64,000 nucleotides of DNA, taken from the NCBI RefSeq assembly GCF_000265425.1, contig NC_018014.1:2418001-2482000 (forward strand), given 5' to 3'. Positions 18,980 through 45,020 of the stretch are shown here, piece by piece. The notes beneath the pieces were generated by a model. It made no database searches and had not been told where the DNA came from. It saw only the letters and a list, made by a program, of their open reading frames with translations. A program made the translations under genes and the position numbers. Every line of letters begins with the position of its first letter. Positions within the stretch are counted from its first letter, which is position 1. This DNA is from Terriglobus roseus DSM 18391 (lineage in GTDB: Bacteria > Acidobacteriota > Terriglobia > Terriglobales > Acidobacteriaceae).

Positions 18980-19717
18980 TCAGGCCTCTTCCATGCGAGC
19001 CACCGGCATGGATGGAGAGAAGAGGTAACCGGTGCTCCGTATCGCGATGAGTCCGCCCGTGAACAGTGGAAAGACTTCAAGCTTCTTACGCAGACGCGAG
19101 ACGTGCATATCAACACTTCTGTCGTACGCGCGATGCGGCCTTTCCAGCGCTTCGATGCAAAGAACCTCTCGGTTAAGCACTTCGCCCGGATGAGATAGAA
19201 AGATGCGCAGGAGGAGGTATTCCACGTCCGTAAGATCGATTGAGCGGCCATGGAACGTTATCTGACGGTGCAACGGATCGATGGCAAACCCCGGAGTTGC
19301 CTCTGCAGCAGGCATATCAGCGCGAGGCACGACATGCGCGCGACGAACCACAGCGCGCATGCGAGCGAGTAACTCTCGTGGGTTGAACGGCTTCGGAAGA
19401 TAGTCGTCCGCTCCCATTTCGAGGCCGACAATCCGGTCGATCTCTTCGCCTCTTGCGGTAAGCAGAAGGACATGGGGGTTCATCTCGCGTTGGAGACGAC
19501 GCAAAACCTCAAAGCCATCGAAATCCGGCAACATCACATCAAGGACGACTAGTTCCGCACGGACTCTACGTGCGGCCTCCATGCCCGATGCTCCGGTGTG
19601 TGCAGCAGTGACGTCCCAGCCGTGACGAGTCAAGTAGTCCCGCAGCATCGAGCAGAGTTTCACGTCATCATCGATGACCAGCACGCGGTCCTTCTGGATG
19701 GTCTGCGCTTCTGTCAT
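18980..19717 (-). CDS. CpxR-like OmpR-family response regulator
   Basis: 245 residues. The receiver domain has the acidic pair DDD, phospho-acceptor Asp in VVLDVMLPDFDGF, Thr in LLTARGEE and Lys in KPFNPREL. The C-terminal winged helix has the OmpR pattern IDLTDVEYLLLRIFL...YDRSVDMHVSRLRKKL. It is first in the operon with the kinase at 17569. The divergent promoter region to the efflux operon contains a 10-bp-phased GTGAC/GTTAC array (19773-19812), so this protein is the best candidate to bind it and control mdtABC-like efflux and perhaps itself. That link is inferred. Confidence 0.92.
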   Translation of the reverse strand: MTEAQTIQKDRVLVIDDDVKLCSMLRDYLTRHGWDVTAAHTGASGMEAARRVRAELVVLDVMLPDFDGFEVLRRLQREMNPHVLLLTARGEEIDRIVGLEMGADDYLPKPFNPRELLARMRAVVRRAHVVPRADMPAAEATPGFAIDPLHRQITFHGRSIDLTDVEYLLLRIFLSHPGEVLNREVLCIEALERPHRAYDRSVDMHVSRLRKKLEVFPLFTGGLIAIRSTGYLFSPSMPVARMEEA

Positions 19718-19772: not shown

Positions 19773-19812
19773 GTGACACTTCGTTACACTTTGTGACCCA
19801 TCATTACCACGG
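19773..19812 (+). promoter_or_regulatory. phased direct-repeat array before the RND efflux operon (array A)
   Basis: Four units begin exactly 10 bp apart: GTGACACTTC at 19773, GTTACACTTT at 19783, GTGACCCATC at 19793 and the weaker ATTACCACGG at 19803. The array ends 38 nt before the efflux adaptor ATG and lies 55 nt from the regulator start on the other strand. Tandem 10-bp direct repeats are the binding geometry of OmpR/CpxR-type regulators. Three more arrays with the same GTGAC-GTTAC-GTGAC order occur in the window. Confidence 0.75.
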
Positions 19813-19850
19813 TTCAACTTTGGCCGATCACTCTTGGATAAGAGGTAACC

Positions 19851-21167
19851 ATGCTCCCTTCCGAGAGGCCGATGCAAGAAGCCACATCCGCCGCCCCTGA
19901 CGAATCCGCCCCCCAGCAGACGCCGCATGAACGCCGGTGGCTCGCCTGGGTACTCGTTGTCCTGGTCTGCGGCATCATCACGATCCCTCTGCTTCTGCCT
20001 ACGATGCCACCCGGCGGGATGCCTCCGGGTGGTATGCCACCGGCCGGTCCTGGAGGCGCCGCGCCCAGGGGGGCCGGCGATAAGGGCAAGAAGGCTTCAG
20101 GATCCCCGAGCAGCGTCATGGCAGCCACGGACAACAGCACCCCGGTCACGACGGCCAAGGTGCAAACGGGCCACATGGATATCTTCCTGGATGCCCTCGG
20201 TACCGTGACCCCGTTGGCTACGGTAAATGTGTACAGCCAGGTCAGCGGACGCGTCCTGGCGGTGAACTACCGCGAGGGCCAGATGGTTCACAAGGGACAG
20301 GTGCTGGTAGAGATCGATCCGCGCCCGACCGAGGCACAGGCGCAGCAGGCACGGGGTAGCCTGGCGCGAGATCGGGCGCTCCTGGACCAGGCCCGCGTCA
20401 ACCTGCAGCGCTACCAGGAAGCATTGAAGGATCACGCAATCGCCGAGCAGACCGTATTCGATCAGTCCGCGACCGTGAATCAGTACGAGGGTACGGTCGC
20501 CAATGACGAAGGACAGGTGAAGTACTACGAGGTTCAGCTCAGCTATTGCCATATCATCGCGCCGATCTCCGGCAAGATTGGTCTGCGGCTGGTTGACTCC
20601 GGCAATACCATCTTTTCGGGCAGTTCAACCACCATTGCGACGATCACGCAGCTGAACCCAATCACCGTTGTGTTCTCCGTTGCGGAAGATCATCTCCCCA
20701 AGATCCAGCAGAAGACCGGGCCGAATCATGGAGCCTTGACGGTTGCCCTTTACGACCGTTCCCAGACCAGCCAACTAACCACTGGAAAGCTGCTTACCCT
20801 CGACAACCAGGTGGATACAAGCACCGGAACCGTGCGGCTGCGTGCCCAGTTCGACAACGCTGCAGCAGCGCTCTATCCCAACCAATTCGTGAATGCACGG
20901 CTTCAGGTGGATACGCTGCAGAACGCCAAGCTGATCCCCACTGGCGCCGTGCAATACAACGGCCAACAAGCATTTGTGTACGTCGTGAAACAGGACTCCA
21001 CGGTGGCGCTGCGTAATATCACCGTCCTGAATACTGAAGGAAACCAGAGTGCGATCGACGGCCTGAACCCCGGCGATACGGTCATCACTAGTAACTTCGA
21101 CCGTCTGACGGATGGCGCAAAGGTGGCAGTGGGTTCCAGCCAGTCGGCCATGATGGGGCCTGCGTAA
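19851..21167 (+). CDS. mdtA: RND efflux periplasmic adaptor (MdtA-like)
   Basis: 438 residues with AGAGG 5 nt before the ATG. One N-terminal TM helix (WLAWVLVVLVCGIITIPLLL) anchors it. A Met/Pro/Gly linker (MPPGG repeated) follows, then the membrane-fusion fold: lipoyl half VNVYSQVSGRVLAVNYREGQMVHKGQ, a helical hairpin (QAQQARGSLARDRALL), and the second lipoyl half and beta-barrel APISGKIGLRLVDSGN. It links the inner-membrane pump to the outer-membrane factor. The stop overlaps the next start (TAATGA). The symbol reflects family and gene order, not proven substrates. Confidence 0.9.
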   Translation: MLPSERPMQEATSAAPDESAPQQTPHERRWLAWVLVVLVCGIITIPLLLPTMPPGGMPPGGMPPAGPGGAAPRGAGDKGKKASGSPSSVMAATDNSTPVTTAKVQTGHMDIFLDALGTVTPLATVNVYSQVSGRVLAVNYREGQMVHKGQVLVEIDPRPTEAQAQQARGSLARDRALLDQARVNLQRYQEALKDHAIAEQTVFDQSATVNQYEGTVANDEGQVKYYEVQLSYCHIIAPISGKIGLRLVDSGNTIFSGSSTTIATITQLNPITVVFSVAEDHLPKIQQKTGPNHGALTVALYDRSQTSQLTTGKLLTLDNQVDTSTGTVRLRAQFDNAAAALYPNQFVNARLQVDTLQNAKLIPTGAVQYNGQQAFVYVVKQDSTVALRNITVLNTEGNQSAIDGLNPGDTVITSNFDRLTDGAKVAVGSSQSAMMGPA

Positions 21168-24100
21168 TGAATATTTCGCGGCCCTTCATCACGCGGCCGG
21201 TTGCGACGATCCTGCTGATGGTGGCGATCCTGCTCGTCGGCATTGTCGCTTACAGGGACCTGCCAATCTCTGCACTACCTGAGGTCAACTACCCGACCAT
21301 TCAGGTGCAGACGCTGTATCCCGGCGCCAGTCCCGAGGTGATGAGTTCCACAGTCACCGGTCCGTTGGAGAAGCAGTTCGGCCAGATGCAGGGCCTGTCG
21401 CAGATGACCTCCACCTCTTCCGGAGGTGCGTCGGTCATTGTGTTGCAGTTTGATTTGACCGAAGACATCGACGTCGCTGAACAGGAAGTCCAGGCTGCGA
21501 TCAATGCCTCAAACTCCTACCTGCCCGCCGACCTTCCTATCCCACCGACTTACAGTAAGACAAACCCCGCAGATGCGCCTGTGTTGACGCTTGCTCTGAC
21601 ATCGAAGGTGATGCCATTGAGTGAAGTCCAGGACCTTGCGGACACACGTTTGGCACCGAAGATCTCTCAGCTCACCGGTGTGGGTCTCGTCACGATCCAG
21701 GGCGGGCAGAAGCCTGCGGTACGCATCCAGGCAAATCCAACGGCGCTTGCCTCTTATGGTTTGACTCTTGAAGATGTCCGGACAGCGATTACCGGCACCA
21801 GCGTCAACACGGCCAAAGGCACGCTGAACGGACCGCAGCAGGCGTACACCATCGACGCGAACGATCAGCTCACTTCGGCCGAGCAGTACAAGCAAGTGGT
21901 CGTGGCCTATCGCAATGGATCGGCTGTCATGCTGCCGGAGGTCGCGAAGATCACCAATGGCGTTGAGAACAACAAACTGGCTGCCTGGATGAACACCACG
22001 CCAGCGATTATCCTCAGCATCCAGCGGCAATCTGATGCCAACACGATCAAGGTAGTCGACTCGATCAAGGCACTGCTGCCGCAGTTGCAGGCAAGCCTGC
22101 CGGCTTCCATTGAAGTGCATATACTGACCGACCGAACCATAACGGTCCGCGCTTCGGTAGAAGACGTTGAGTTCGAGCTGCTGCTGACGATCGGGCTGGT
22201 GATCGCGGTGATTTACGTCTTCCTGCGATCATGGCGAGCCACCGTGATTCCTGCGGTTGCTGTTCCGCTCTCGTTGGTCGGTACGTTCGCCGCGATGTAT
22301 GCGCTGGGCTACAGCCTGAACAATCTAACGTTGATGGCGCTCACGATTTCGACCGGCTTCGTCGTCGATGATGCGATCGTGATGATCGAGAACATCAGCC
22401 GCTACCTGGAAGAGGGACTGGATCCTCTTGAGGCATCCCTCAAAGGCGCTGAAGAGATCGGCTTCACCATCCTGTCGCTCACGGTTTCACTGATCGCTGT
22501 GCTGATTCCGCTGCTGTTCATGGGAGACATCACTGGCCGGCTCTTCCGGGAGTTTGCCGTGACGCTGGCGGTGACAATCATCATCTCCGCGGTGGTCTCC
22601 CTCACCTTGACACCGATGATGGCGTCGCGGCTGTTGAAGCACACACCTCCTGAAGACGAGACGCGCTTTTACAAATGGTCAGAGCACCAGTTCGAACGCA
22701 TCATCGGCTTCTACGGGCGGACACTTCAGTGGGTGCTCGGTCGTCAGGCGGTGGTGCTGGTCATTGCGTTCAGCATGATCGTCTGCGCTGGTCTTCTGTA
22801 CTACTTCATCCCCAAGGGCTTCTTCCCGACGCAGGATACCGGCATCATCCAAGCCATCACCCAGGCACCGGAGGCCACGAGCTTCGACGCGATGAGCAAA
22901 CGGGAACAAACGGTGGCCCGAGAGATTCTGGAAGACCCCGCCGTGGAATCCATCGCATCGTTCATCGGCGTGGATGCCAGCAACACCACGCCAAATACGG
23001 GACGCATGCAGATCAATCTGAAGGCACTGTCCACGCGTGGTGTCTCAGCGACGGAGGTTATCCAGCGACTGCGTCCCAAGCTGAACCGCATCACCGGCAT
23101 CACAACCTACCTGCAGCCAGTCCAGGATCTTACCGTTGAGGATCGTGTCAGTCGTACGCAATACCAGTACACGATCGAAGACTCCGACAGCGCAGAGCTG
23201 AAGGCGTGGTCGTCGAAGCTGGTCGCCAGGCTTCGTACCCTGCCTCAACTAGAAGACGTGACCACGGACGAGTTGCCGAACGGCAATGCAGTCACGGTCG
23301 ATGTGGACCGCGTCACGGCATCCCGTCTAGGCATCAACCCTCAGAGCCTGGACAACACGCTTTACGATGCCTTCGGCCAGCGCCAGATCTCAACGCTGTA
23401 TAGCCAGACGAACCAGTACCACGTGATCCTCGAAGCTGATTCGAAGTTTCAGAGCAGCGTGGAGCGGCTTGGCGATATTTACATGCAGGGCACGGGAACT
23501 GCGAGTAACTCCAGCAGCGGTGGAGGATCGGGGGGCTACGGCCAGACTGGCACGTCGTCTTCCTCCTCGACCAACTCGCAATTGACTGCGAGCAGTACAA
23601 GCGGTGTAAGCGCCACGACATCCAGCAGCTCGACGCTGGCTACGACTACAGCCAACAGCCAACTCAATACCTCGGCGCAAAACGGGGCAATCTCAGGATC
23701 GACCACCGGCAGTACAGTGCTCCAGACATCGTCGACCACCGGCAGCACGTCTGCACTTAGCACATCCTCTTCCAGTGGTGGGTCGTCGTCGGCGCAGAGC
23801 AGTACCGGGTCAGCCGCTGGTGGTGGTGGCGGCAGTGCAAGCAGCAGCAATTCGAGCGCTCGTTATCCCGTCCCGCTCGCGGCATTCACCACGATCAAGA
23901 AGTCCCTTACACCGCTGACCATCAATCGTCAGTCGCAGTTTCCGGTCATCACGATCTCGTTCAATCTTGCGCCGGGTGTGCACTTGAGCCAGGCGGTGAA
24001 TGCCGTGACGAAAGCGACCGCTGCACTCAAGATGCCAACGAATGTACAGACGAAGTTCCAGGGTACAGCAGCCAGTTATGAGACATCGTTGAACAACGAA

Positions 24101-24652
24101 GGTCTGCTGGTGCTTGCAGCGCTACTCACCGTCTACATCGTCCTCGGTGTTTTGTACGAGAGCTTCATTCACCCACTCACTATTCTCTCCACACTGCCGT
24201 CAGCAGGCGTAGGCGCGTTGCTGGCGCTCATGCTCTGCCGCATGGACTTGGGCATCGTTGGCATCATCGGCATTGTGCTGCTGATTGGCATCGTGAAGAA
24301 GAACGGCATCATGATGGTCGACTTCGCTCTCAACGCAGAACGCGTCGAAGGCAAGCCGCCCGAAGAAGCGATCTATAACGCGAGCTTGCTTCGCTTCCGT
24401 CCGATCATGATGACGACCCTTGCTGCCCTCTTCGGTGGATTACCGCTCGCACTTGGTCGCGGTATCGGGGCTGAGCTGCGCAGGCCTCTTGGCGTAGCGA
24501 TGGTGGGCGGCTTGCTATTGAGCCAGGTACTGACGCTGTACACGACGCCGGTGATCTACCTCTGGTTCGATCGCATCAGCCAGAAGTTGCAGCGGAGAAA
24601 GAACGATAAGCCGATTGGTCAACAGAACCTGCCACTAGGGGGTCAGGCATGA
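21167..24652 (+). CDS. mdtB: RND efflux permease (MdtB-like) with a large Ser/Thr/Gly-rich insertion
   Basis: 1161 residues, about 120 more than the family norm. It has the RND layout: TM1, a large periplasmic loop, TM2-6 with TM4 proton-relay signature STGFVVDDAIVMIENISR, then the second half with TM10 GIVLLIGIVKKNGIMMVDFAL. The excess is a low-complexity stretch at about residues 775-898, almost only Ser, Thr, Gly, Ala and Asn, between LGDIYMQG and the conserved PVPLAAFTTIKKSLTPL. In AcrB that position lies in the funnel domain near the outer-membrane-factor docking site. It should form a heteromeric pump with the next gene, which overlaps it by 4 nt. Confidence 0.92.
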   Translation: MNISRPFITRPVATILLMVAILLVGIVAYRDLPISALPEVNYPTIQVQTLYPGASPEVMSSTVTGPLEKQFGQMQGLSQMTSTSSGGASVIVLQFDLTEDIDVAEQEVQAAINASNSYLPADLPIPPTYSKTNPADAPVLTLALTSKVMPLSEVQDLADTRLAPKISQLTGVGLVTIQGGQKPAVRIQANPTALASYGLTLEDVRTAITGTSVNTAKGTLNGPQQAYTIDANDQLTSAEQYKQVVVAYRNGSAVMLPEVAKITNGVENNKLAAWMNTTPAIILSIQRQSDANTIKVVDSIKALLPQLQASLPASIEVHILTDRTITVRASVEDVEFELLLTIGLVIAVIYVFLRSWRATVIPAVAVPLSLVGTFAAMYALGYSLNNLTLMALTISTGFVVDDAIVMIENISRYLEEGLDPLEASLKGAEEIGFTILSLTVSLIAVLIPLLFMGDITGRLFREFAVTLAVTIIISAVVSLTLTPMMASRLLKHTPPEDETRFYKWSEHQFERIIGFYGRTLQWVLGRQAVVLVIAFSMIVCAGLLYYFIPKGFFPTQDTGIIQAITQAPEATSFDAMSKREQTVAREILEDPAVESIASFIGVDASNTTPNTGRMQINLKALSTRGVSATEVIQRLRPKLNRITGITTYLQPVQDLTVEDRVSRTQYQYTIEDSDSAELKAWSSKLVARLRTLPQLEDVTTDELPNGNAVTVDVDRVTASRLGINPQSLDNTLYDAFGQRQISTLYSQTNQYHVILEADSKFQSSVERLGDIYMQGTGTASNSSSGGGSGGYGQTGTSSSSSTNSQLTASSTSGVSATTSSSSTLATTTANSQLNTSAQNGAISGSTTGSTVLQTSSTTGSTSALSTSSSSGGSSSAQSSTGSAAGGGGGSASSSNSSARYPVPLAAFTTIKKSLTPLTINRQSQFPVITISFNLAPGVHLSQAVNAVTKATAALKMPTNVQTKFQGTAASYETSLNNEGLLVLAALLTVYIVLGVLYESFIHPLTILSTLPSAGVGALLALMLCRMDLGIVGIIGIVLLIGIVKKNGIMMVDFALNAERVEGKPPEEAIYNASLLRFRPIMMTTLAALFGGLPLALGRGIGAELRRPLGVAMVGGLLLSQVLTLYTTPVIYLWFDRISQKLQRRKNDKPIGQQNLPLGGQA

Positions 24653-27600
24653 ACATATCTGCCCCTGCGATTCGCAGACCCATCGCTACAATTCTGTTGA
24701 CGGCTGCGCTGGGCCTGGCTGGAACTCTAGCCTTCAACGTCCTTCCAGTTTCCCCGTTGCCACAGATCGATTCCCCGACCATCAGTGTCAGCGCGCAGCT
24801 ACCGGGCGCCAGCCCCGATGTGATGGCAGCGGCCGTGGCGACACCACTCGAGCGTCAGTTTGGTCATATCGCCGGTGTCACGGAGATGACCTCGCAGAGC
24901 TCGACTGGATCAAGTTCGATCTCGCTGCAGTTTGATCTGAGTAAGAACGTCAACGCCGCGGCACGTGAAGTACAGGCGGCGATCAGTGCGGCCCGGACCT
25001 ATCTCCCAACGAACCTGCCTTCCAATCCTGTGTACCGCAAGGTGAACTCCGCGGACGCACCCATCGCCATTCTTGGGATTGAGTCCGACACGTATGCCGT
25101 AGGCGCGCTCTACGATTCCGCATCTACCATCCTGCAGCAGAAGATTGCGCAGATTAAGGGTGTTGGTCAGATCACCATCGGCGGTTCCACACTGCCCGCC
25201 GTACGTGTTGAAATCAATCCCCTGCAGCTTGAGCACTATGGCTTGAGCCTGGCGGATGTTGCCACCTTCCTGAAGAACCAGAACGCTCACACGCCGACCG
25301 GTGCTCTGTCAGACGGGCAGACCATGAGCTACATCACGGTGAACGATCAGCTCTCAAAAGCAGAGGACTATCGCAAGCTGGTGGTGAGTACGCGCAATGG
25401 AGCTGCCGTCCGATTGGAGGACATCGCAGAGGTCGTAGATTCGACCGAGAATCTACACTCCAGCGGCTATGTGAATGGACGCAAGTCGGTTGACCTCATC
25501 ATCTTCAAACAGCCCGGTGCCAACATCATCGAGACAGTGGATCGCATCAACGCACAGCTCCCTGCCCTGCGTTCGGCGATCCCGGCCGGGCAGTCGATTA
25601 CCAAAATCATGGATGCGACCACCACGATCCGTGCTTCGCTGCGTGATACAGAACTGACACTGCTCCTTTCGATCCTGCTCGTCATCCTGGTGGTCTTCGT
25701 GTTCCTCCGCGACTGGAGAGCGACGATCATCCCCGGCATTGCCGTTCCCACTTCGTTGATCGGAACCTTCGGTGCGATGTACCTGCTGCACTATTCACTC
25801 GACAACCTCAGCCTGATGGCGCTCACCATCTCGACGGGATTCGTCATCGACGATGCCATCGTCGTCATGGAAAACATCACGCGTTACGTTGAGGAGGGCG
25901 TGCCGCCACTCGAAGCAGCATATAAAGGCGCAAAGGAGATTGGCTTCACGGTCATCTCCATCACGGCTTCCCTGCTGGCAGTGTTCATTCCAATCCTCAT
26001 GATGGGTGGCATCATCGGGCGACTCTTCCGTGAGTTCGCCGTGACGCTATCGATCGCCATCTTCATTTCGATGGTCCTGTCCCTGACGACGACGCCAATG
26101 CTTTGCTCGCTGCTGTTGAAGCCCCGCGAGAAGTCAGAGCACGGCCGCTTGTATCGGTTCGTGGAAAGCTGCTTCGACTGGCTGCGCGCCATGTATGAAC
26201 GCAGCCTTCGCTGGGTGATCCGCGACCACGCAGTGCTGGTCCTCGCGGTCTTCCTCTTCACCATCGGGTTGAATGTTGTGTACCTGATGCGTGTCTCAAA
26301 AGGCTTGTTTCCCCAGCAGGACACAGGCTTGTTGATGGGCGCTGTCATGGGTCCACAGGATGCGTCGTTCCAGATGATGGATGGCGCCACCAAGAAGTCC
26401 GTCGAGATCGTTCGCGCAGATCCTGCAGTCCAGAATGTCATTGGTTTTACGGGCGGCGGCATCAGCGGCACGTCGAACAACGCTTTCATGTTCGTTGTCC
26501 TCAAGCCACTGGACGAGCGCAAGCTGAGTGCGACTGCTGTCCTGAATCGTCTGCGTCCGAAACTGATGGTAGTCAAAGAGGCGCAGACCTTCCTGATGGC
26601 CGCGCAGGAGATCAACCTTGGCGCGCGACAATCGAACGCACAGTATCAATACACGCTGCAGGCAGACTCCACAAGCGACCTGAAGAAATACGTCCCCCTG
26701 CTCACACGCGAGATGAAGAAACTGTCCCTCGTTGCCGACGTCAACTCCGATCTACAGAGCGGTGGCCTGGAGGCCTACCTGACGTATGACCGTCGCACGG
26801 CAGCCCGCCTTGGGATCATGCCTTCGAATATCAACGACGCCCTGAACTACTCCTTTTCGCAGGCGCAGACGTCGACGATCTACAAGCCGCTCAATCAGTA
26901 CCATGTCATCCTCGAAGCCCAGCAGCAGTTCACGCAATCACCCGCGACTCTTCGCAATACGTATGTGCAAACCGCCAGCGGTTCCGTCCCCCTGAGTGCC
27001 ATCAGCACTTATAAAACGCTCACCGCCCCGCTGTCCGTGAACCATTCCGGTCTCTATCCGTCGTCGACCATCTCTTTCAACCTGGCAGGCGGGACATCGA
27101 TTGAAAAAGCAACCAGCGAGGTGCACGCGCTGGAAACACAGTTGCACATACCGAAGAGCGTGCATGGAGCTTTCTCCGGCACAGCCCAGCTCTATCAGGC
27201 TTCCATCGACTCTGAGCCGATTCTGATCGCCACCGCCATCTTCGCGGTATACATCGTCCTGGGTGTTCTCTATGAGAGCTTCATTCACCCCATCACCATC
27301 CTCACCACGCTCCCATCCGCATCGCTCGGTGCAGTCATCACGCTCGTGCTCTTCCATGCCGAACTGGACGTCATCTCCCTGATCGGGATCATCCTGCTCA
27401 TCGGCATTGTGAAGAAGAACGCCATCATGATGATCGACTTTGCGTTGCAGTTGGAACGCGAGCAAAACTTGCCGCCCGAAGACGCCATCTTCCAAGCCTG
27501 CATCCTGCGCTTTCGTCCCATCCTGATGACCACCGCGGCAGCATTCTTCGGAGCAGTTCCACTGGCCTTTGGCAGCGGAATCGGCTCGGAGTTTCGCCGG

Positions 27601-27759
27601 CCACTTGGCCTCACCATTCTCGGTGGTTTGCTTGTGAGCCAGGTCCTCACGCTCTACACCACGCCAGTCGTGTACCTGATGTTGGATCGCCTGCGCCATC
27701 GCTTTGGTCGCAAGCAATCGAACCATCCTCATGCGATCGCGGCCCAGGGGGCATTATGA
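24649..27759 (+). CDS. mdtC: RND efflux permease (MdtC-like)
   Basis: 1036 residues, the normal length, without the insertion seen in its neighbour. TM4 carries STGFVIDDAIVVMENITRYVEEG with the two Asp of the proton relay; TM10 carries LLIGIVKKNAIMMIDFALQLER. The periplasmic porter and funnel domains are complete. In the MdtB/MdtC pair one subunit mainly conducts protons and the other binds substrate; which role applies here cannot be read. Translational coupling (ATGA overlaps on both sides) supports a fixed stoichiometry within the operon. Confidence 0.92.
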   Translation: MNISAPAIRRPIATILLTAALGLAGTLAFNVLPVSPLPQIDSPTISVSAQLPGASPDVMAAAVATPLERQFGHIAGVTEMTSQSSTGSSSISLQFDLSKNVNAAAREVQAAISAARTYLPTNLPSNPVYRKVNSADAPIAILGIESDTYAVGALYDSASTILQQKIAQIKGVGQITIGGSTLPAVRVEINPLQLEHYGLSLADVATFLKNQNAHTPTGALSDGQTMSYITVNDQLSKAEDYRKLVVSTRNGAAVRLEDIAEVVDSTENLHSSGYVNGRKSVDLIIFKQPGANIIETVDRINAQLPALRSAIPAGQSITKIMDATTTIRASLRDTELTLLLSILLVILVVFVFLRDWRATIIPGIAVPTSLIGTFGAMYLLHYSLDNLSLMALTISTGFVIDDAIVVMENITRYVEEGVPPLEAAYKGAKEIGFTVISITASLLAVFIPILMMGGIIGRLFREFAVTLSIAIFISMVLSLTTTPMLCSLLLKPREKSEHGRLYRFVESCFDWLRAMYERSLRWVIRDHAVLVLAVFLFTIGLNVVYLMRVSKGLFPQQDTGLLMGAVMGPQDASFQMMDGATKKSVEIVRADPAVQNVIGFTGGGISGTSNNAFMFVVLKPLDERKLSATAVLNRLRPKLMVVKEAQTFLMAAQEINLGARQSNAQYQYTLQADSTSDLKKYVPLLTREMKKLSLVADVNSDLQSGGLEAYLTYDRRTAARLGIMPSNINDALNYSFSQAQTSTIYKPLNQYHVILEAQQQFTQSPATLRNTYVQTASGSVPLSAISTYKTLTAPLSVNHSGLYPSSTISFNLAGGTSIEKATSEVHALETQLHIPKSVHGAFSGTAQLYQASIDSEPILIATAIFAVYIVLGVLYESFIHPITILTTLPSASLGAVITLVLFHAELDVISLIGIILLIGIVKKNAIMMIDFALQLEREQNLPPEDAIFQACILRFRPILMTTAAAFFGAVPLAFGSGIGSEFRRPLGLTILGGLLVSQVLTLYTTPVVYLMLDRLRHRFGRKQSNHPHAIAAQGAL

Positions 27760-29294
27760 AACTTGTCACATCTGCTCGCGCAACGGGCGCAGCGTTAACG
27801 CTTTCTCTCTCCCTGCTTGGTGGTTGCCGCGTTGGCCCTAAGTATGTCCGTGCCTCGATGCCTACAGCGCCGCCAGTCGCATACAAGGAGAACCAGGCCG
27901 GCAGCGACGAAGCCCGCAGCAACGGTTGGCGTCAGGCTCATCCAGACGATGCCATGCTGCGCGGAAAGTGGTGGGAGGTCTTCCAGAACGCAGAGCTAAA
28001 CGCTCTGGAAGAACACCTCATCATCGACAACCAGAACATCAAGCAATACTTCGAGAACTACATGGCGGCGCGCGCTGTTGTCCGCAATGCCCATGCCTCT
28101 CTCTATCCATCGATCTCGTTTGCACCCAGCACGAACATCCAAGGTCAGGGCAATCAGAGCACCGCGACCGCAACGACGTCCACCACGGGCACGAGCGGAA
28201 GCGGTACGACCGGGACGACGCTTGCGAGCAACAGCAGCCACAGTTACTCACTCCCCTTCAGCGCCTCTTGGGAGCCTGATCTCTTCGGGAAGGTTCGTAA
28301 CACCATTCGCGAGGACGCCAACGCGGCACAGGTAAGTGCGGCAAATCTGGCGAACGAAACACTCAGCGAGCAGGCCAGTCTGGCTCAGTATTACTTCGAA
28401 CTGCGCGGCCAGGACGCACTTCAGGAGCTCTACAACAAGACAGTGGATGCCTACCGAGATACTCTGCGTCTCACCCAGACGCGATACCGGACCGGCATTG
28501 ACTCTGACCAGGATGTCGCCCAGGCCGAGACAAACCTTCGCACCGCCGAAGCGAATGCAGCCGCGGTGGCGACAACACGTGGCCAGTACGAACACGCCAT
28601 CGCTCTGCTGATCGGTCAGCCCCCAGGCAACTTCTCAATCGCCGTCAAACCGTTGGATGCCAAGCCTCCGTTCGTTCCGGTCGGGATCCCATCCCAACTG
28701 CTGGAACGGCGTCCAGACATTGCAGCAGCCGAGCGAACGATGGCTCAGGCGAATGCACTGATCGGCGTCGGCCAGGCGGCCTACTACCCTGACATCTCTC
28801 TGACTGCCAGCGCGGGAACACAAAGCTCAGACATTACGCACCTGCTGAATCTCTCCGCGGGCTTCTGGTCACTGGGCACAAGCGCAACCGAGACGATCTT
28901 CGACGCGGGAGCGCGCCGCGCTACGGTGCAACAGTACAAGGCACAGTACAACGCAGATGTGGCGGCATACCGGCAGACGGTGCTGAACGCCTTCAAGGAG
29001 GTCGAAGATTATCTGATCTCAAGCCGGCAACTCGCTGAACAGCAACAACGACAGCAGTTAGCGATCACCTCCGCGCAGCGATACCAGAAGCTCGCCTTCA
29101 CCCGTTACACAACGGGCGTCGACACCTACCTTAATGTTCTGACAGCACAGAACAGTGTCTTCAACAGCCAGGAAACGGAAGTCAACCTCCGTACCAGCCG
29201 CATGACCGCGGCTGTCCAGTTGATCGCGGCTCTCGGTGGTGGTTGGAGTGCGACAGATCTGCCATCGGAGAAGGACGTTACTCGCAAGCCATAG
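27756..29294 (+). CDS. outer-membrane efflux factor, NodT/TolC-like lipoprotein
   Basis: 512 residues. It has a lipoprotein signal (LSLSLLGGCRVGPKY) and the two repeated outer-membrane-efflux-protein domains. Conserved segments are WWEVFQNAELNALEEHLIIDNQNI, SWEPDLFGKVRNTIRED, PSQLLERRPDIAAAERTMAQANALIGV and FDAGARRATVQQYKAQY. A Thr/Ser/Gly-rich insert of ~30 residues (about 133-162) sits just before the conserved SWEPDLFG, where the first extracellular loop of the barrel is expected. It overlaps the permease stop by 4 nt and completes the tripartite pump. Confidence 0.9.
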   Translation: MKLVTSARATGAALTLSLSLLGGCRVGPKYVRASMPTAPPVAYKENQAGSDEARSNGWRQAHPDDAMLRGKWWEVFQNAELNALEEHLIIDNQNIKQYFENYMAARAVVRNAHASLYPSISFAPSTNIQGQGNQSTATATTSTTGTSGSGTTGTTLASNSSHSYSLPFSASWEPDLFGKVRNTIREDANAAQVSAANLANETLSEQASLAQYYFELRGQDALQELYNKTVDAYRDTLRLTQTRYRTGIDSDQDVAQAETNLRTAEANAAAVATTRGQYEHAIALLIGQPPGNFSIAVKPLDAKPPFVPVGIPSQLLERRPDIAAAERTMAQANALIGVGQAAYYPDISLTASAGTQSSDITHLLNLSAGFWSLGTSATETIFDAGARRATVQQYKAQYNADVAAYRQTVLNAFKEVEDYLISSRQLAEQQQRQQLAITSAQRYQKLAFTRYTTGVDTYLNVLTAQNSVFNSQETEVNLRTSRMTAAVQLIAALGGGWSATDLPSEKDVTRKP

Positions 29295-29436
29295 AAGGCA
29301 CCTCACCCTGAAGGGCTCTGCCAGGTCGAACTCCTAAAAGGCCAGGTCCGCAAGAAACTGGCCGCTGCCTGCACCGCACTCCCGTTGCGCGGAAGGCCGT
29401 TTCGTACGCCAAACGTAGAACGCTAGCTCTTGGCGT

Positions 29437-29658
29437 TCAACCTTCGGTTGCGACGGGAATTGTTTTCGGGCGTGCGTGGAACTCAACCACTTCCTTCACG
29501 TCCAAACAGAGAGCAAAACCTGCGTAGAGAAAGCCGTAGGCGGTACCTCCGATGAGAAAGCTGACCAGCAGCGATGGGAGCCATGCCGACATGGAAAGGA
29601 TTGGTTCTTTCATCGTCGTATTGACCGAATGGATCAGTCTGGGTATTGGATTTCTCAT
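29437..29658 (-). CDS. small putative membrane protein downstream of array B
   Basis: 73 residues from the ATG at 29658, which has GGGAG a few nt upstream; the open frame continues to 29718 but that would overlap the regulatory array. One TM helix is likely (WLPSLLVSFLIGGTAYGFLYAGFAL), followed by a polar tail. No family is recognised. Evidence that it is real is contextual: array B (29709-29748) reads in its direction and ends 50 nt before the start. It could be a pump-associated or envelope-stress peptide, but that is a guess. Confidence 0.45.
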   Translation of the reverse strand: MRNPIPRLIHSVNTTMKEPILSMSAWLPSLLVSFLIGGTAYGFLYAGFALCLDVKEVVEFHARPKTIPVATEG

Positions 29659-29708
29659 GGACTCCCGATTCGACCCTCGTTGTTTATAGACGGCTTTCAC
29701 CGAAGGCC

Positions 29709-29748
29709 GTTCCGTCATGAGTGGTCACTGACCGTAACGATTTGTCAC
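29709..29748 (-). promoter_or_regulatory. phased direct-repeat array between the small membrane protein and the orphan regulator (array B)
   Basis: On the minus strand four 10-bp units follow without gaps: GTGACAAATC (29748-29739), GTTACGGTCA (29738-29729), GTGACCACTC (29728-29719) and ATGACGGAAC (29718-29709). The order GTGAC-GTTAC-GTGAC equals that of array A. It lies between the minus-strand gene starting at 29658 and the plus-strand regulator starting near 29788, so it could control either or both. Confidence 0.72.
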
Positions 29749-29787
29749 AACCAGATCAGCATGACTTGAGGTACCGTTCGCGGAGTT

Positions 29788-30543
29788 TTGCGGGAGTGTG
29801 GCATCCACGACTTACTACATTCACGCGGCGTGTCTCGCGATGTCCTGATCGTCGATGACGATGTAGATCTATGCCGAATGCTCGCAAGCTTCCTCGGCCA
29901 GCACGGCTGGATAGTCCATGCCGGGCATAACGGCCAACGTGCGCTGGAACTCTGCCGGAGCAAACCCTTCGAGGTAATTCTGCTCGACATTGACTTGTCG
30001 GACTGCAGTGGCTTCGACCTTATCCGAGAGATTCACGACTCGATGGGGACACCCATCATCGTTATCAGTGGTCGATGCGAAGAGACGGATCGCATTGTGG
30101 GTCTGGAGCTCGGGGCGGATGATTACATCTCGAAGCCTTTCAGCCTGCGGGAATTGTTTGCTCGCATGGGGGCCGTTGTCCGTCGATCAGGTCAATTGGC
30201 TAGGAGCCCGAACGGCCCTTCTACTCACTCCTTCGGTCATTTTGTAGTCCAGTTGGAAACGCATGAAATCTCTTACGGCAGAACGAAGCTTACCTTGACC
30301 CCGGCGGAATTTCAGCTCCTACGTCTCTTACTCGATAGGCCGTATGAAGTGTGCAGTCGTGAGCTGCTGGCGCAGATCGTGCTGCTTCGGACCTATGACC
30401 CACTCGACAGAAGTCTGGACATGCACATCTTGAGACTTCGGCGAAAGCTGGGCCGTGTTCCACAGTTCGGAGGGGGCATCCTCACCGTAAGGAGCGGTGG
30501 CTACATGCTGGCTCTCCATCCTCAAAAATTCAAAGGGATCTGA
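29788..30543 (+). CDS. orphan OmpR-family response regulator
   Basis: 251 residues from a TTG with GGAG close upstream; a GTG at 29830 just before DVLIVDDD is an alternative and would remove 14 residues without domain content. The receiver is intact: VDDD, phospho-acceptor Asp in VILLDIDLSDCSGF, Ser in IIVISGR and Lys in ISKPFSLREL. The winged helix has LTLTPAEFQLLRLLL...YDPLDRSLDMHILRLRRKL. It resembles the regulator at 18980, but no histidine kinase lies beside it. It faces the secretin operon, which is convergent, and has array B upstream. Confidence 0.9.
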   Translation: MRECGIHDLLHSRGVSRDVLIVDDDVDLCRMLASFLGQHGWIVHAGHNGQRALELCRSKPFEVILLDIDLSDCSGFDLIREIHDSMGTPIIVISGRCEETDRIVGLELGADDYISKPFSLRELFARMGAVVRRSGQLARSPNGPSTHSFGHFVVQLETHEISYGRTKLTLTPAEFQLLRLLLDRPYEVCSRELLAQIVLLRTYDPLDRSLDMHILRLRRKLGRVPQFGGGILTVRSGGYMLALHPQKFKGI

Positions 30544-30585
30544 ATGACAAGAGTCAGTCGCGACGGTATGTGGAGTTCGTTCCAA

Positions 30586-32517
30586 TCAGAATCTGTCACC
30601 GACGCGGTAGGTGCTGACGTGCATCGCAGAGTCGCTCACCACGTGCGGCGTCACTGTGATCAAAAGCTCGTTCCTGGTTCCGTCGGAGTTCTTGTTGGTG
30701 CTTTGGAAACCCGGTAGATCTGCCATCCCAGGCAAACCGTCCAGCGCCTTTGCTTCATCTGTACTTACCAGGGCGGCAAGCATGGTCGATTGGCCAGGGG
30801 CGATGGTAACGGTCGACTTCAGCGCCCGGTTGTTGAGGATAGGGATATCGTTGACCCCGGTTCCTCCCAGGGATTCGAGCTTGAAGTCGAGATTCAATTC
30901 CACGTCTCCGTCCCGAAGGAGCCGTGGTGTCAGTTTGAGCGTGAGGCCGATATCCTCGAACTGGATCTGCGGCGTCGTGTTGCTACCGCTGCCGCTGGAC
31001 CCAGTGAGCTGTGCAATGACGGAACTGCTGACCCCAGCAGCCGCCAACTCCTGCGCTACAGTGCTGCTCGAAGCCGAAGTCGTGATTGCCGTCAGAATTG
31101 GATAGCGGGATCCGACACGCAACGTGGCCTCGTGGCGGTCACTCGAGCGTATCTGGAGCGCATTCAACATCCGGACGTCGGTGGAGTTCAAGAGCATATT
31201 CAAACTGGTCGAACCCATAGATATTCCCAGCAGCGGAACACCCTCCAGGCTGCCGACAGTTCCAAGGATGCTTGTAAGGGAACTACTTCCAGACACGCCG
31301 GCTGCCACGAGGAATGCGACCTCCTGCAGTTCCTGCTGATAAGTCGTGCCCGAGAGAGTCAACGCACCGCTCGAGATAGATTCATTGAGTAGGGTTTGGT
31401 TATCTGAGATCAGCTTCTGTGCCGTGCCAGAGACGTCAGTAGCAGTGGCCGAGGTCGGCGGTGCAAACCCGATCTTGCGGGCGGTAGTCTTGTCGACTTC
31501 GTAGATGTTGATGTCGAGCAGGATGTCTGCAGTTCGCACAGCAAGCTCGGTCAACAGATCATGGATGCGGTGCACGGATGCTTGTGGACCACGAACAACG
31601 ATGATGCCGCTGTCGGCATTCACCGCCAGATGCGTCAGATCAAAATGTGAACGCAGGACATTTGCGAGTTCCAGCATTTGCGGCCGGTTCTGCGAGGAGA
31701 GATAGATGGTCTCTTCCACCAGTGGCATGAGCAATCCACGCACCTCTTCTGCGTCATCTGCAATCAAGGCGCTCGTCGAGTCCAGTGGTACGGCGAAGAG
31801 ATGGGCCGCCTTATGAAGCACGCGGGCTGCCCCCAGGAAATCAACATCATCGACATCGATGCGAAGGTTCTTCCCACTCAGGACAGAAGGATCGAAGACG
31901 CTTTCGATGCCGAACGCCCTGTAAACCTCGCGGACGACCTGCTGTGTGGCGCCACTCGTATGAAAACTCCGGACCCCATCAAAGGGTGTCAAGGCAAGCG
32001 GTCCCTCAAATTCCTCTGACGTACGCCGCTCCTGCTGCCCTGTCGTTTTACGTAGGGTGTCGGCGAATTGCAGTACGAGCGGGTTGTTCGGATCGAGAGT
32101 TCTTGCTCCCGCAAACAAGCGGTCGGCCTCTCCAGCATCGCCCGCAAGGCGCGACTTGAAGGAGGCCTGCATTAATCGCTTCACCTCAACCTCACGCGCA
32201 TAGAGCAGCGCCAGGACGTAGGTTCGGTTGTCAGGGTCGAGGTGGACGGCTCGTTCAAATTGGCGCTGGGCCTTCTGAAATTCTCCGCGCGCGAAGAACT
32301 TTGCTCCTTCCAGATAGGCGTCGTCTGCCTCCCGCTTTTGTCTTCGCGACCCGGTATGCGCCGTGGTCGTCGGCACATCCGCAGCAGATGGTTGCGACTC
32401 GCTCTGATTACTGCTGCTACTGAGTACCACCGTGCTTGCGCAAGTGATACCGGGACTTGCGCACGCAGCACCGAGGGGAAGCAAGAAAACAAGTCCCGCC
32501 TCCCATCTACTGAACAT
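30586..32517 (-). CDS. TPR-secretin protein (GspD/PilQ family), second of a tandem pair
   Basis: 643 residues from the ATG at 32517, whose N-terminus forms a signal peptide; an upstream in-frame start at 32553 would lie deeper inside the previous gene. After a low-complexity Ser-rich segment come TPR-like helices (GAKFFARGEFQKAQRQFERAVHLDP), secretin N-domains (ALIADDAEEVRGLL, SGIIVVRGPQASVHRIHDLL) and a secretin core (RVGSRYPILTA, QFEDIGLTLKLTPRLLRDGDVELNLDFKLES, AALVSTDEAKALDGLPGMADLPG, ELLITVTPHVV). Secretins form large outer-membrane channels. It overlaps the first secretin gene by 11 nt. No ATPase, platform or pseudopilin gene lies nearby, so the partner machinery is unknown. Confidence 0.85.
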   Translation of the reverse strand: MFSRWEAGLVFLLPLGAACASPGITCASTVVLSSSSNQSESQPSAADVPTTTAHTGSRRQKREADDAYLEGAKFFARGEFQKAQRQFERAVHLDPDNRTYVLALLYAREVEVKRLMQASFKSRLAGDAGEADRLFAGARTLDPNNPLVLQFADTLRKTTGQQERRTSEEFEGPLALTPFDGVRSFHTSGATQQVVREVYRAFGIESVFDPSVLSGKNLRIDVDDVDFLGAARVLHKAAHLFAVPLDSTSALIADDAEEVRGLLMPLVEETIYLSSQNRPQMLELANVLRSHFDLTHLAVNADSGIIVVRGPQASVHRIHDLLTELAVRTADILLDINIYEVDKTTARKIGFAPPTSATATDVSGTAQKLISDNQTLLNESISSGALTLSGTTYQQELQEVAFLVAAGVSGSSSLTSILGTVGSLEGVPLLGISMGSTSLNMLLNSTDVRMLNALQIRSSDRHEATLRVGSRYPILTAITTSASSSTVAQELAAAGVSSSVIAQLTGSSGSGSNTTPQIQFEDIGLTLKLTPRLLRDGDVELNLDFKLESLGGTGVNDIPILNNRALKSTVTIAPGQSTMLAALVSTDEAKALDGLPGMADLPGFQSTNKNSDGTRNELLITVTPHVVSDSAMHVSTYRVGDRF

Positions 32518-34888
32518 GCACCGCCCCAGGTTTCCCGACGACAGCCAGGCCACTCTGCTTGCTGTCAGTGGCGTTCATGTTCGTCAGGGTTAGAGTCGAA
32601 TCTCCACTGCCTACCGCCTTGAACGTAAGGATCACAAGGCTTCCATCACCCGTCACCCCACCAGCATTTGGTGGCCGCACCACGGATACGGAGACCACTC
32701 CATTGCCGCTCTCGCGTTGCTGCAACGCCGCGGGTTGACCGTCACGGCCCAGGAGCTCTCCGTTGTCCACGCGCACGAGCGACAACACCTTGGGATCGAA
32801 ATTTACTTGGAACGGAGCGCTGAATAGATCGACCGCGTGGGAAGCCGTCACAGCCACCTGGAAGGTGGATCCGATCTGCTGATTCACTGCGGACGGTACC
32901 ACTTGAAGGACTACCGATGCACTTGGTATCGCGCCGCTTGTCTTGGTTGTGGGTGATACCAGCGGACGCGCCTGCGCCGCAAGCTGTCCAAGCATGGCCG
33001 AGGCAGCGTTCGCGGCAGACGTCGGCTGACTGGTGGCAGCCTGCTCTTTGCCTCCAACATCGTCCACATCCTTCGTATCGCTGAGTCTGCCATTCGGGCC
33101 GCGATGCCGCAGTTCGATGCTCTGGCTGGTGCCGCTGTCGATCACTCTCGTGTTCGCTTCGGTCAGGGGTGATTCCCGAACGATGTGCGGAATCAGTAGG
33201 AAGACGATCTCGTCGCTCGATTGCTTCTTGTCCTGACTGCTAAAAAAATATTTGAGAAACGGTAGCTCTCCTAGCCCAGGCGTTCCGCTTACGCTCTTGG
33301 TATCGCTCTGCTGAAGAAGCCCAGCCAGAATGGATGGTTCGCCGTCTTTGAGTTGAATCACCTGCTGCACCAAGCGCTGGGAGATGATCGGCTCCGAGAC
33401 GCCGCTGATGGTGGTTGACCCTGTCTGCGAGGAGACTTCGATCTTCATCTTGAGTGATACCTGGTGATCAAGATGAACCGTGGGTGTCATGTCGATGTTG
33501 ACACCCACATCCACGTAAGTGAACTGCGTCGTCGCTGTGGCAGTCGATGTGAGCGTGGAAGTTGTCGAACCGGTTGCGACGGGGATCTTTGATCCGATCT
33601 TGAGCGTCGCCTGTTGACCATCACTCGCGCGTACCCTTGGATTCTGCAGAACCCGCGTGTCCGAGTCAGACAGCAGCGCGTTCAGCGAAGCGCTGCTCAA
33701 AGTCACGGCGAAGTTGGTGCCGTTCAAGTTGCCGAGTGTGTTCAGCGTCAATCCCGAGGTGGAAGTACTAGTAGACGTTGACGATGAGCTCGAAGAACTG
33801 GTGGAATTCGCATTGCTGGCTTGGGCACTCACACTGAAGCTCGTCGGCAACGTAATGCCTAGATTCCGCTCCAGATCACGGCTTACCTCCAGAACCGCAA
33901 CGTCTACGACCACTTCCGAGCGCGTCCGATCAAAGTCATCAATCAGCTTCTGAACCAGCACCAGCTCGGCTGGGGTCGCACGGATCACAATGGCGTTCTG
34001 CGATGCGAGTAGAAAGATCTTGGTACTCGGATCGAGGAGATTCCTGAGCGCAGTCAGTACTTCGTTGGCATCATTCTGCTGCGACATATTTGTCAAATAG
34101 AACGTCTCTACCGCAAGACCGTCATTGTCGGTATGCTTCGCGCGATTGTTCTGCGCAACAAAGATCGTGTTCTCCGTAAGTGGAGACCAGAACGTCCCGG
34201 CTATCTTACCGACGATTCGGAGACTATCGTTCAGCGACACGTTGGAGAGGTCCACCGCAATCCGTCTCGAGTTGTAGTCGGAATCGAAGATGACATTGAG
34301 GCCCGCCAGCTTTGCGATCGCCTGATAGATGACCTTGCTGTCTTCAACAAGGTGCATGGTGATAGGGTCCATCGAAATTGGCGCGAGCTCGACCGGACTG
34401 TCCAAAGAATCAATCTCGCGACGCACGCGCTTCTGATGCTGTGCCTGTAAGTTCCCCACCGGAGCGGCCGCACCGCCTCCTCCAGCAACCGCACTTCCCG
34501 ACGCATGCGATGCATTGGATGGTTCCTCTGAGGCGAGGAGCTCTTGTGCAGCCGATTGATTTCCCCGGTCGATCTGCAGGGCGCGCGCGAACTCTTTCAT
34601 GGCGCCGGCGTCGCCAGATTGCCGCAAGACACGCCCACGATCCAGATGTGCGTTCGATGCCTGGAAGCGCATCCGCTCATAGTGGGTCTCGTAGCGGAGA
34701 TCCTTCGGCTTCAGTAGATGCGCTTGACGATAGGCCTCAAAGGCTGCGTCGAAATCATTACGCAGCTCGGCCTCGTTCCCGCGCTTGTCCCATTTCGCCG
34801 CGGATTGCGCCAGGGATTTGTTTGGAGCAACGCAGGTAACTACCGCACAGAGAAGCGATAGAAATACCTTGCGTTTACAGTCAGCCAT
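32507..34888 (-). CDS. TPR-secretin with C-terminal cohesin domain, first of a tandem pair
   Basis: 793 residues from the ATG at 34888 (signal peptide VFLSLLCAVVTCVAPNKSLAQ); a GTG at 34960 would put the start inside array C and is disfavoured. Domain order is signal, TPR-like helices, secretin N0/STN (SKVIYQAIAKLAGLNVIFD), N1/N3 repeats, a Ser-rich gate-proximal loop, the secretin core (TRVLQNPRVRASDGQQATLKIGSKIPVATG, VDVGVNIDMTPTVH, ILAGLLQQSDTKSVSGTPGLGELPFL, EIVFLLIPHIVRES), a linker, then a ~125-residue cohesin domain (GSTFQVAVTASHAVDLFSAP...). Cohesins bind dockerins or act as adhesion modules. Secretin-cohesin fusions occur in Acidobacteria. Confidence 0.88.
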   Translation of the reverse strand: MADCKRKVFLSLLCAVVTCVAPNKSLAQSAAKWDKRGNEAELRNDFDAAFEAYRQAHLLKPKDLRYETHYERMRFQASNAHLDRGRVLRQSGDAGAMKEFARALQIDRGNQSAAQELLASEEPSNASHASGSAVAGGGGAAAPVGNLQAQHQKRVRREIDSLDSPVELAPISMDPITMHLVEDSKVIYQAIAKLAGLNVIFDSDYNSRRIAVDLSNVSLNDSLRIVGKIAGTFWSPLTENTIFVAQNNRAKHTDNDGLAVETFYLTNMSQQNDANEVLTALRNLLDPSTKIFLLASQNAIVIRATPAELVLVQKLIDDFDRTRSEVVVDVAVLEVSRDLERNLGITLPTSFSVSAQASNANSTSSSSSSSTSTSTSTSGLTLNTLGNLNGTNFAVTLSSASLNALLSDSDTRVLQNPRVRASDGQQATLKIGSKIPVATGSTTSTLTSTATATTQFTYVDVGVNIDMTPTVHLDHQVSLKMKIEVSSQTGSTTISGVSEPIISQRLVQQVIQLKDGEPSILAGLLQQSDTKSVSGTPGLGELPFLKYFFSSQDKKQSSDEIVFLLIPHIVRESPLTEANTRVIDSGTSQSIELRHRGPNGRLSDTKDVDDVGGKEQAATSQPTSAANAASAMLGQLAAQARPLVSPTTKTSGAIPSASVVLQVVPSAVNQQIGSTFQVAVTASHAVDLFSAPFQVNFDPKVLSLVRVDNGELLGRDGQPAALQQRESGNGVVSVSVVRPPNAGGVTGDGSLVILTFKAVGSGDSTLTLTNMNATDSKQSGLAVVGKPGAVHVQ

Positions 34889-34953
34889 CTCGTGTCGAAA
34901 AACTTTGGAATATTGTCGGCTCACAGTGCGATAGACGTTCAACGAAGTCTTCG

Positions 34954-34983
34954 GCGGCACTCCGGTCGGTAACGAATTGTCAT
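34954..34983 (-). promoter_or_regulatory. phased direct-repeat array before the secretin operon (array C)
   Basis: On the minus strand the units are ATGACAATTC (34983-34974), GTTACCGACC (34973-34964) and a weak third, GGAGTGCCGC (34963-34954). The first two are nearly the same as those of array D, which points the other way. The array ends 66 nt before the preferred secretin start at 34888. Confidence 0.65.
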
Positions 34984-35061
34984 CATCACTCGTGACATTT
35001 CAGGATCCTGTCAGGCAGCTGATCAGGCGGTGCACTCATGCAGCACCAACGGACTGCGGCG

Positions 35062-35101
35062 ATGACAATTTGTTACAAACCGTGACCACGGCAACAAACC
35101 G
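35062..35101 (+). promoter_or_regulatory. phased direct-repeat array before the small secreted protein gene at 35168 (array D)
   Basis: Units start every 10 bp: ATGACAATTT at 35062, GTTACAAACC at 35072, GTGACCACGG at 35082 and a degenerate CAACAAACCG at 35092. The array ends 66 nt before the TTG start at 35168, the same distance as between array C and the secretin start. Arrays C and D together make the secretin/35168 intergenic region a symmetric divergent promoter. Confidence 0.72.
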
Positions 35102-35167
35102 GAAGCGTTCTTCTAAAGCCAACGCGGCCGCAGTGATCCATAGGACCGCTGCAGAAGGAGCAAGACA

Positions 35168-44728: not shown

Positions 44729-44816
44729 GGCTTACAGAAGGTAGTCTTGATAGAGTGCCTCTCGCCGAAGTGATCCTCAACCATCAAGCTCTTGCTTCGA
44801 AGCAAGGACCTGAGCG

Positions 44817-44885
44817 TTTGCTTTCGGAGGGGCATGGCTTCAGCCATGCCATCAACAAGCTCAAGAAAGACCGGCGTTCGCCGCT
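44817..44885 (+). repeat. structured intergenic repeat, copy 1
   Basis: The unit has hairpin 1, GGCATGGCT-TC-AGCCATGCC (44831-44850), a ~20-nt spacer, and hairpin 2, CGGCG-TT-CGCCG (44872-44883). A second copy follows 134 bp downstream. Directly upstream lies a further palindrome (44791-44806, CTTGCTTCGAAGCAAG). Confidence 0.8.
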
Positions 44886-44949
44886 TACGGAACCCATCAG
44901 ACGCGCACAAGACCTCTCAGCACCAGGGACATCGGAAGCAAGAATTTAA

Positions 44950-45020
44950 GCTTTTGCTTTCGGAGGGGCATGGCTTCAGCCATGCCATCAACAAACTCAA
45001 GAGAGACCGGCTTTAGCCGC
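44950..45020 (+). repeat. structured intergenic repeat, copy 2
   Basis: Same order as copy 1 and the first hairpin is identical (44968-44987). In hairpin 2 the stem is CGGCT-TT-AGCCG (45008-45019), so a G-C pair of copy 1 is replaced by T-A with pairing kept. Both copies lie between pabBC and the ZIP transporter gene. Confidence 0.8.

Follow-up and report, generated by a model that had tools for sequence, protein, structure and literature searches.

Phased GTKAC arrays as probable operators of a CpxAR-family system clustered at one locus of Terriglobus roseus

We analyzed a 64,000-nucleotide stretch of the Terriglobus roseus DSM 18391 genome (contig NC_018014.1, positions 2,418,001 to 2,482,000; hereafter the window), in which four arrays of five-base units starting every 10 bp are directed at envelope genes or their remnants. 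An earlier reading of this DNA, the original prediction, proposed that the arrays define an envelope-export regulon bound by the response regulator at 18980, by the orphan regulator at 29788, or by both. In window coordinates, the locus holds the following features (ORF, open reading frame).

17569 to 18972, minus strand: CpxA-like sensor histidine kinase with HAMP, HisKA and HATPase_c domains (Pfam)
18980 to 19717, minus strand: RR1, CpxR-family response regulator (Pfam, tree), recognition helix DRSVDMHVSRLRKKL; the likely reader of the arrays
19773 to 19807, plus strand: array 1, GTGAC-GTTAC-GTGAC-ATTAC, four 10-bp-phased units directed at the RND operon
19831 to 19834, plus strand: CTCT, a variant of GTCT, 23 bp past the last unit of array 1
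19851 to 29294, plus strand: RND efflux operon (Pfam, NCBIfam), with adaptor (19851), MdtB/MuxB-like (21167), MdtC-like (24649) and outer-membrane channel (27756) genes
29437 to 29658, minus strand: 73-residue ORF, N-terminal remnant of a pro-kumamolisin-like protease gene
29688 to 29691, minus strand: GTCT of CGTCTATAAA, 22 bp past the last unit of array 2
29714 to 29748, minus strand: array 2, GTGAC-GTTAC-GTGAC-ATGAC, four units directed at the protease-gene remnant
29788 to 30543, plus strand: RR2, orphan response regulator (Pfam, tree), recognition helix DRSLDMHILRLRRKL
30586 to 32553, minus strand: second secretin, with N-terminal TPR-like matches below the Pfam cutoff
32507 to 34960, minus strand: secretin with a C-terminal cohesin domain (Pfam, NCBIfam)
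34933 to 34936, minus strand: GTCT of CGTCTATCGC, 22 bp past the third-unit position of array 3
34969 to 34983, minus strand: array 3, ATGAC-GTTAC intact, third unit degenerate (GGAGT, 34959-34963), directed at the secretins
35062 to 35086, plus strand: array 4, ATGAC-GTTAC-GTGAC followed by a degenerate CAACA, directed at the small protein
35111 to 35114, plus strand: TTCT, a variant of GTCT, 24 bp past the last unit of array 4
35168 to 35668, plus strand: small protein with a CarboxypepD_reg-like domain just below the Pfam cutoff and, by eye, a signal-like N-terminus

All four arrays lie where the original prediction placed them (19773 and 35062 on the plus strand, 29748 and 34983 on the minus strand). 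Their phasing and the degenerate third unit of the 34983 array also stand, but the arrays at 19773 and 29748 are each one unit longer than first described. Across the window, RTKAC pairs at a spacing of 10 occur five times per strand, whereas all other spacings between 5 and 39 give zero to three pairs per strand, the counts at 20 and 30 deriving in part from the same arrays. Nine of the ten spacing-10 pairs fall inside the arrays, and the tenth (21095) is in coding sequence. The arrays are thus confirmed as a real feature of the sequence.

The RND operon has the MdtABC/MuxABC gene set of an adaptor, two distinct permeases and an outer-membrane channel. The channel scores above the cutoff of its subfamily model, and the other three genes fall below their equivalog cutoffs (in bits, cutoff in parentheses: MdtA/MuxA 343 (391), MdtB/MuxB 1468 (1584), MdtC 1312 (1774)). 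For the cohesin-bearing secretin, the ATG at 34888, past the GTCT box, is the likelier start, and the small protein at 35168 is apparently secreted. The ORF behind array 2 had been taken for a 73-residue membrane protein. It is instead what remains of a protease gene, with 53% identity to the first 70 residues of a 1025-residue protein from the relative G006 that Pfam assigns to the pro-kumamolisin-like type. The remnant retains a four-unit operator and a GTCT box. Four further proteins of G006 and G001 (one DUF4410-like, a second OEP and two LTXXQ-like, the last two being the candidates for a CpxP/Spy-type target) found no tblastn match in the window; these genes have therefore either been lost from this lineage or were never present at this locus.

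We searched the whole genome, a single contig of 5,227,858 bases, with a strict three-unit pattern (RTKAC-N5-RTKAC-N5-RTKAC) and, as a control, with the same pattern reversed. The strict pattern matches ten times, with five matches each in the window locus and in its exact copy 460.5 kb away, and the control matches nowhere. Trained on sequence alone, from 24 arrays of three relatives and none of the window's own, a model recovers all four window arrays and their copies (E 0.0002-0.069; 150 of 689 first-look candidates scored). Among the scored candidates, at E values up to 10, the model finds only two sites outside the locus and its copy, at 4725638 (E 0.068) and 1520634 (E 1.57). We therefore reject a regulon spread across the genome: the array circuit is one clustered locus.

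The site at 4725638 is a weak two-unit site upstream of a sigma-factor-like gene. A counterpart lies 71-90 bp before the ortholog in G005 (gene 95% identical; E 0.115), and none was seen before the other orthologs viewed in the sense strand, several more being viewed only in antisense. With the G005 ortholog alone among the sense-strand views, we did not count this site as a regulon member. In L098 (7638-7661), a GTTAC site of two units precedes TATAAT by 23 bp and lies upstream of a gene that by eye resembles extracytoplasmic function (ECF) sigma factors; the G005 ortholog has a weak match before it as well.

Arrays recur in relatives. The strict pattern is present in 5 of 19 genomes of the genus, and the reversed control gives one or two matches in 5 of the 19. 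Its matches cluster in G001 (13, of which 12 share about 30 kb of a single contig and the other precedes an RND operon elsewhere), G006 (7, six within about 26 kb) and G013 (9, all within about 34 kb); the one match in G005 is at chance level. Looser two-unit matches in relatives add further candidate sites. In a family sample with the middle unit fixed as GTTAC, the forward pattern matched 17 of 200 genomes, compared with 11 of 200 for the control (counted by eye). A single match in other genomes is near chance, and only clusters or matches beside conserved genes are informative. Seven of the 13 match-bearing family genomes outside the genus were inspected, and in six the match adjoins a pair like RR1 and its kinase or homologs of the same targets. 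Such a pair stands beside the array in G155, G200 and G132 (one genus), G114 and G083, with a pump or an outer-membrane protein as the target. In G193 the array is at a contig end, together with protease, secretin and outer-membrane protein homologs. The seventh array, in G076, adjoins neither a pair of this kind nor target homologs.

The genes that follow arrays in relatives include MdtABC-like operons, secretins, pro-kumamolisin-like proteases with Ig-like domains, OEPs, CarboxypepD_reg proteins, a TonB-plug protein and small proteins; an alpha-galactosidase-like protein gene follows a two-unit site. Of the two small array-preceded proteins that are candidates for a CpxP/Spy-type target, one has a weak LTXXQ match (E 0.016) and the other has none; every DUF4410 or LTXXQ match in relatives stays under its cutoff, and we call these matches weak. 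In the window and three relatives together, 23 of 24 arrays with at least three units lie outside ORFs of at least 150 residues, and 20 of 24 have a same-strand ORF start within 450 bp. Two of the four that lack a counted start are window arrays, whose starts (35168 and 29658) were missing from the ORF set used. The arrays are conserved in relatives, both as clusters within the genus and beside pairs like RR1 and its kinase in other genera. Their positions, in the window and in relatives, support the proposed link of efflux, secretins and small secreted proteins through tandem sites of the OmpR/CpxR type.

Downstream of the arrays we observed a recurrent GTCT box. In 13 of 31 arrays with at least three units it lies 21 or 22 bp past the last unit. 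Widening the distance to 17-24 bp raises the count to 14 of 31, whereas 2000 shuffles averaged 1.06 and never gave more than 5. The contrast overstates independence because the box was noticed in the same arrays in which it was counted and some of the arrays are orthologous promoters. An earlier form of the box (GTCTWTA, at least six of seven positions) matched 13 of 39 arrays, where shuffles averaged 2.63 and reached 8 at most. Several two-unit arrays have their GTCT box about 10 bp further downstream, as if a third unit had decayed. We also considered an ECF-type promoter (GGAAC-N16-CGTC) but did not adopt it: of the 31 arrays, 4 have GAAC one base past the last unit, and three of these 4 belong to protease promoters that are orthologous to one another. 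It is very improbable that the arrays are a repeat family or a product of chance rather than operators. Single three-unit matches do run near chance level in many genomes, but the placement and polarity of the arrays, the GTCT spacing and the conservation between diverged genomes all argue otherwise.

Which regulator reads the arrays? The kinase at 17569 points to the CpxAR family. The two top models among 71 from NCBIfam are CpxA (253 and 197 bits, both below cutoff), CpxA is the best BLAST match among six E. coli kinases (131 bits; the next, EnvZ, 102 bits), and ranks 2-21 of a Foldseek search with its modelled core are CpxA kinase-core chains. In a tree of response regulators, in which the E. 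coli rows are long branches, E. coli CpxR joins RR1 in a 39-row clade (99/97) and E. coli OmpR falls outside. The regulators associated with GTKAC arrays form a clade of their own, with support of 99/99 in this tree and 100/100 in a larger one. There it has 28 rows: 23 with GTKAC, four without a strict box, and RR2. Some comparisons weigh against a CpxAR affinity. The sensor domain of the kinase has a generic PAS-type fold, and fold comparison did not single out CpxA. RR1 is marginally nearer to E. coli OmpR (163 bits) than to CpxR (156 bits) by BLAST, its pairwise scores to OmpR, CpxR and CreB are about equal, and the CreB and OmpR models of NCBIfam outscore CpxR.

Both RR1 and RR2 had been named as possible readers. 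RR2 belongs to the same clade on a long branch, keeps the same arginine at position 10 of the recognition helix, and it or its ortholog lies inside the array locus in the window, G006 and G013. RR2 could on these grounds be the main reader, with RR1 controlling something else or the pump alone, an arrangement we consider unlikely. The regulators beside the arrays of G155, G200, G132, G114 and G083 are nearer to RR1 (48-62% identity) than to RR2 (40-47%), and each adjoins a kinase. Because the arrays of five genomes, from three other genera, are flanked by regulators nearer to RR1, RR1, with its kinase, is the better candidate and the likely array reader. RR2 may share the sites, since it has the same clade and the same helix arginine.

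The system resembles CpxAR of gammaproteobacteria in its kinase family, its regulator clade and the MdtABC/MuxABC pump among its targets. In both, the regulator and kinase genes diverge from a target across tandem operators, and the distance from the last unit to a -10-like box is alike. The E. coli cpxR-cpxP spacer reads TTTAC-N5-TTTAC-N5-CTGAC toward cpxP and then, after 21 nt, TAAACT, which we read as a putative -10; the layout is that of the window arrays. Passages of a study of Pseudomonas aeruginosa CpxR describe two predicted tandem sites before muxA, supported by DNA affinity purification sequencing (DAP-seq), and a rise of muxABC-opmB on Cpx activation (PMC12802237). The window system differs in its half-site (GTKAC, not TTKAC/GTMAA), in having Arg rather than Asn at helix position 10, in targets that include secretins (in relatives, a protease) and in the confinement of its sites to one locus. 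The 400 bp upstream of RR1 hold no GTMAA pair of the classic GTAAA-N5-GTAAA operator. BaeSR of E. coli is likewise a two-component system beside an MdtABC-type pump, but we rejected membership in it: BaeR has Asn at helix position 10, and the window kinase is nearer to CpxA than to BaeS.

The DNA word itself resembles the OmpR/RstA boxes, GTTACANNNNGTTACA and TACATNTNGTTACA, which are near-identical to the array units and whose regulators have the same helix arginine. Parts of PMC7315122 likewise give the OmpR and RstA boxes as GTTAC-like. RR1 might on this basis, and with its slightly better BLAST score to OmpR, be an ordinary OmpR-like regulator and GTKAC simply the OmpR box GTTACANNNNGTTACA, with no switch in specificity. 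We regard this as quite unlikely, because OmpR and RstA lie outside the CpxR-family clade: E. coli OmpR, itself a long branch, falls outside the group that unites E. coli CpxR, the GTMAA regulators and the GTKAC clade. The kinase, moreover, is clearly nearer to CpxA than to EnvZ and is also nearer to it than to RstB.

To compare operator words across the CpxR family, we scanned by kinase similarity with queries from array-bearing loci and obtained at least 80 loci. From those listed we used 78, dropping L158, where no regulator was found, and L135, which has only 25 bp upstream. Regulators thus entered the count by kinase similarity and not by promoter. Among these loci, 19 regulators have Arg at helix position 10, with GTKAC pairs alone at 10, both words at three and neither at six. 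The other 59 have no GTKAC pairs, GTMAA pairs at 36 and neither at 23. GTKAC pairs hence occur at 13 of 19 loci with Arg and 0 of 59 without, and GTMAA pairs at 3 of 19 and 36 of 59 (Fisher p 1.2e-10, ignoring kinship). In 1558 random windows of these loci, GTKAC pairs occur in 1.1% and GTMAA pairs in 0.26%.

The two words also share a polarity. GTMAA pairs point toward the regulator (58 versus 18) and RTKAC pairs away from it (44 versus 15); reversed, GTMAA is TTKAC, and this common direction therefore suggests that TTKAC became GTKAC. Among NTKAC units that point away from the regulator, G is the most frequent first base at 22 of 24 loci within the clade and T at 32 of 36 outside it (phased NTKAC units of any first base: 53 of 1559 background windows). 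In the listed kinase-chosen loci, units reading away begin with G 31, T 14 and A 6 times where the regulator has Arg, and with T 90, C 8, G 5 and A 1 times where it does not. The in-clade sets for polarity, first base and tree columns include ten loci, namely the window, near relatives and loci chosen by array. The Arg count excludes these ten, although L131, the same gene as L047, is itself from G001.

Only two alignment columns, 208 and 32, fully split 23 GTKAC regulators from 36 GTMAA regulators. Column 208 is Arg in all 23 of the former and Lys, Ala, Asn, Ser and others in the latter. It corresponds to a base-contacting arginine of RstA, numbered both 207 and 208 in the text of PMC4117788. 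In E. coli, OmpR, RstA, PhoB and ArcA have Arg at this position, CpxR and BaeR have Asn, and CreB has Thr. The PhoB box is ATGAC in reverse, which fits the pairing of Arg with GTKAC. Together, these comparisons lead us to lean toward a swap in which an acidobacterial clade of the CpxR family exchanged the half-site TTKAC for GTKAC along with helix Lys, Asn, Ser or Ala for Arg, converging on the OmpR/RstA type of word. Four regulator promoters (L149, L136, L138 and L132) combine ancestral GTMAA with derived GTMAC units and may be intermediates. No earlier report of an operator switch or an acidobacterial CpxR motif was apparent in titles and the openings of abstracts, which leave subscription journals mostly uncovered.

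Several observations weigh against this reading. Column 32, in the receiver domain, splits the two groups equally well. The ArcA box is not known to be a GTKAC repeat, despite the arginine of E. coli ArcA. L146 and L172 belong to the clade and have Arg with no box found, and L132, also in the clade with Arg, has a mixed array and no strict GTKAC pair. GTMAA pairs persist at three in-clade promoters (L136, L138 and L149), and no box was detected at the 23 non-Arg loci counted above. According to passages of PMC4117788, the equivalent RstA arginine contacts G5, a base that could not be mapped onto GTKAC. Moreover, the operator and Arg difference comes essentially from one clade and may reflect common ancestry without causation. 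Finally, the only site of three Solimonas regulators with Arg is a mixed GTAAA/GTAAC one at a distance of 716-745 bp. At these loci (L153, L162 and L178), the CpxR-like gene follows an ORF that by eye ends like an LTXXQ/Spy-type protein, with the mixed site further up.

The second copy of the array locus belongs to a larger structure. The window lies inside a head-to-tail tandem duplication of 460,518 bp (8.8% of the genome) whose copies (2301669-2762186 and 2762187-3222704) overlap by three bases, GCC, at the alignment ends. They are 99.98% identical over the 140 kb compared; all four spot pairs compared inside the unit are 100% identical, and none of five outside it match. For T. roseus KBS 63, passages of Eichorst and others (PMC5900883) put CheckM contamination at 13.79%, note that the multi-copy markers are identical bar one, and read this as population diversity; the listed contamination for the present genome is 9.37%. 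If the assembly is right, the tandem duplication would explain both the high contamination score and the identical markers. Elsewhere in the window (44799-45028) are two direct 94-bp repeats, 88% identical.

Given the conservation of the arrays and their synteny with RR1 and its kinase, we hold with good confidence that they are tandem operators of a CpxAR-family system with a clade-specific GTKAC half-site. We infer that the kinase would sense envelope stress and phosphorylate RR1, which would bind head to tail on three or four half-sites one helical turn apart and activate a promoter whose -10 region is predicted about two turns downstream. Its targets would be the MdtABC/MuxABC-type pump, the secretin pair and the small secreted protein; the ancestral set would also have included a pro-kumamolisin-type protease, of which a remnant is left. 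The half-site would have changed from TTKAC, the reversed CpxR box GTMAA, to GTKAC, probably via Arg at helix position 10.

An open question in the evolution of gene regulation is how the DNA word of a regulator can change while its regulon is kept. A single family here has both the old and the new word, along with mixed promoters and a candidate residue, which makes the change testable with purified protein. The locus also offers a predicted envelope-stress circuit for a phylum with little mapped regulation, one that would include paired secretins and, in relatives, secreted proteases.

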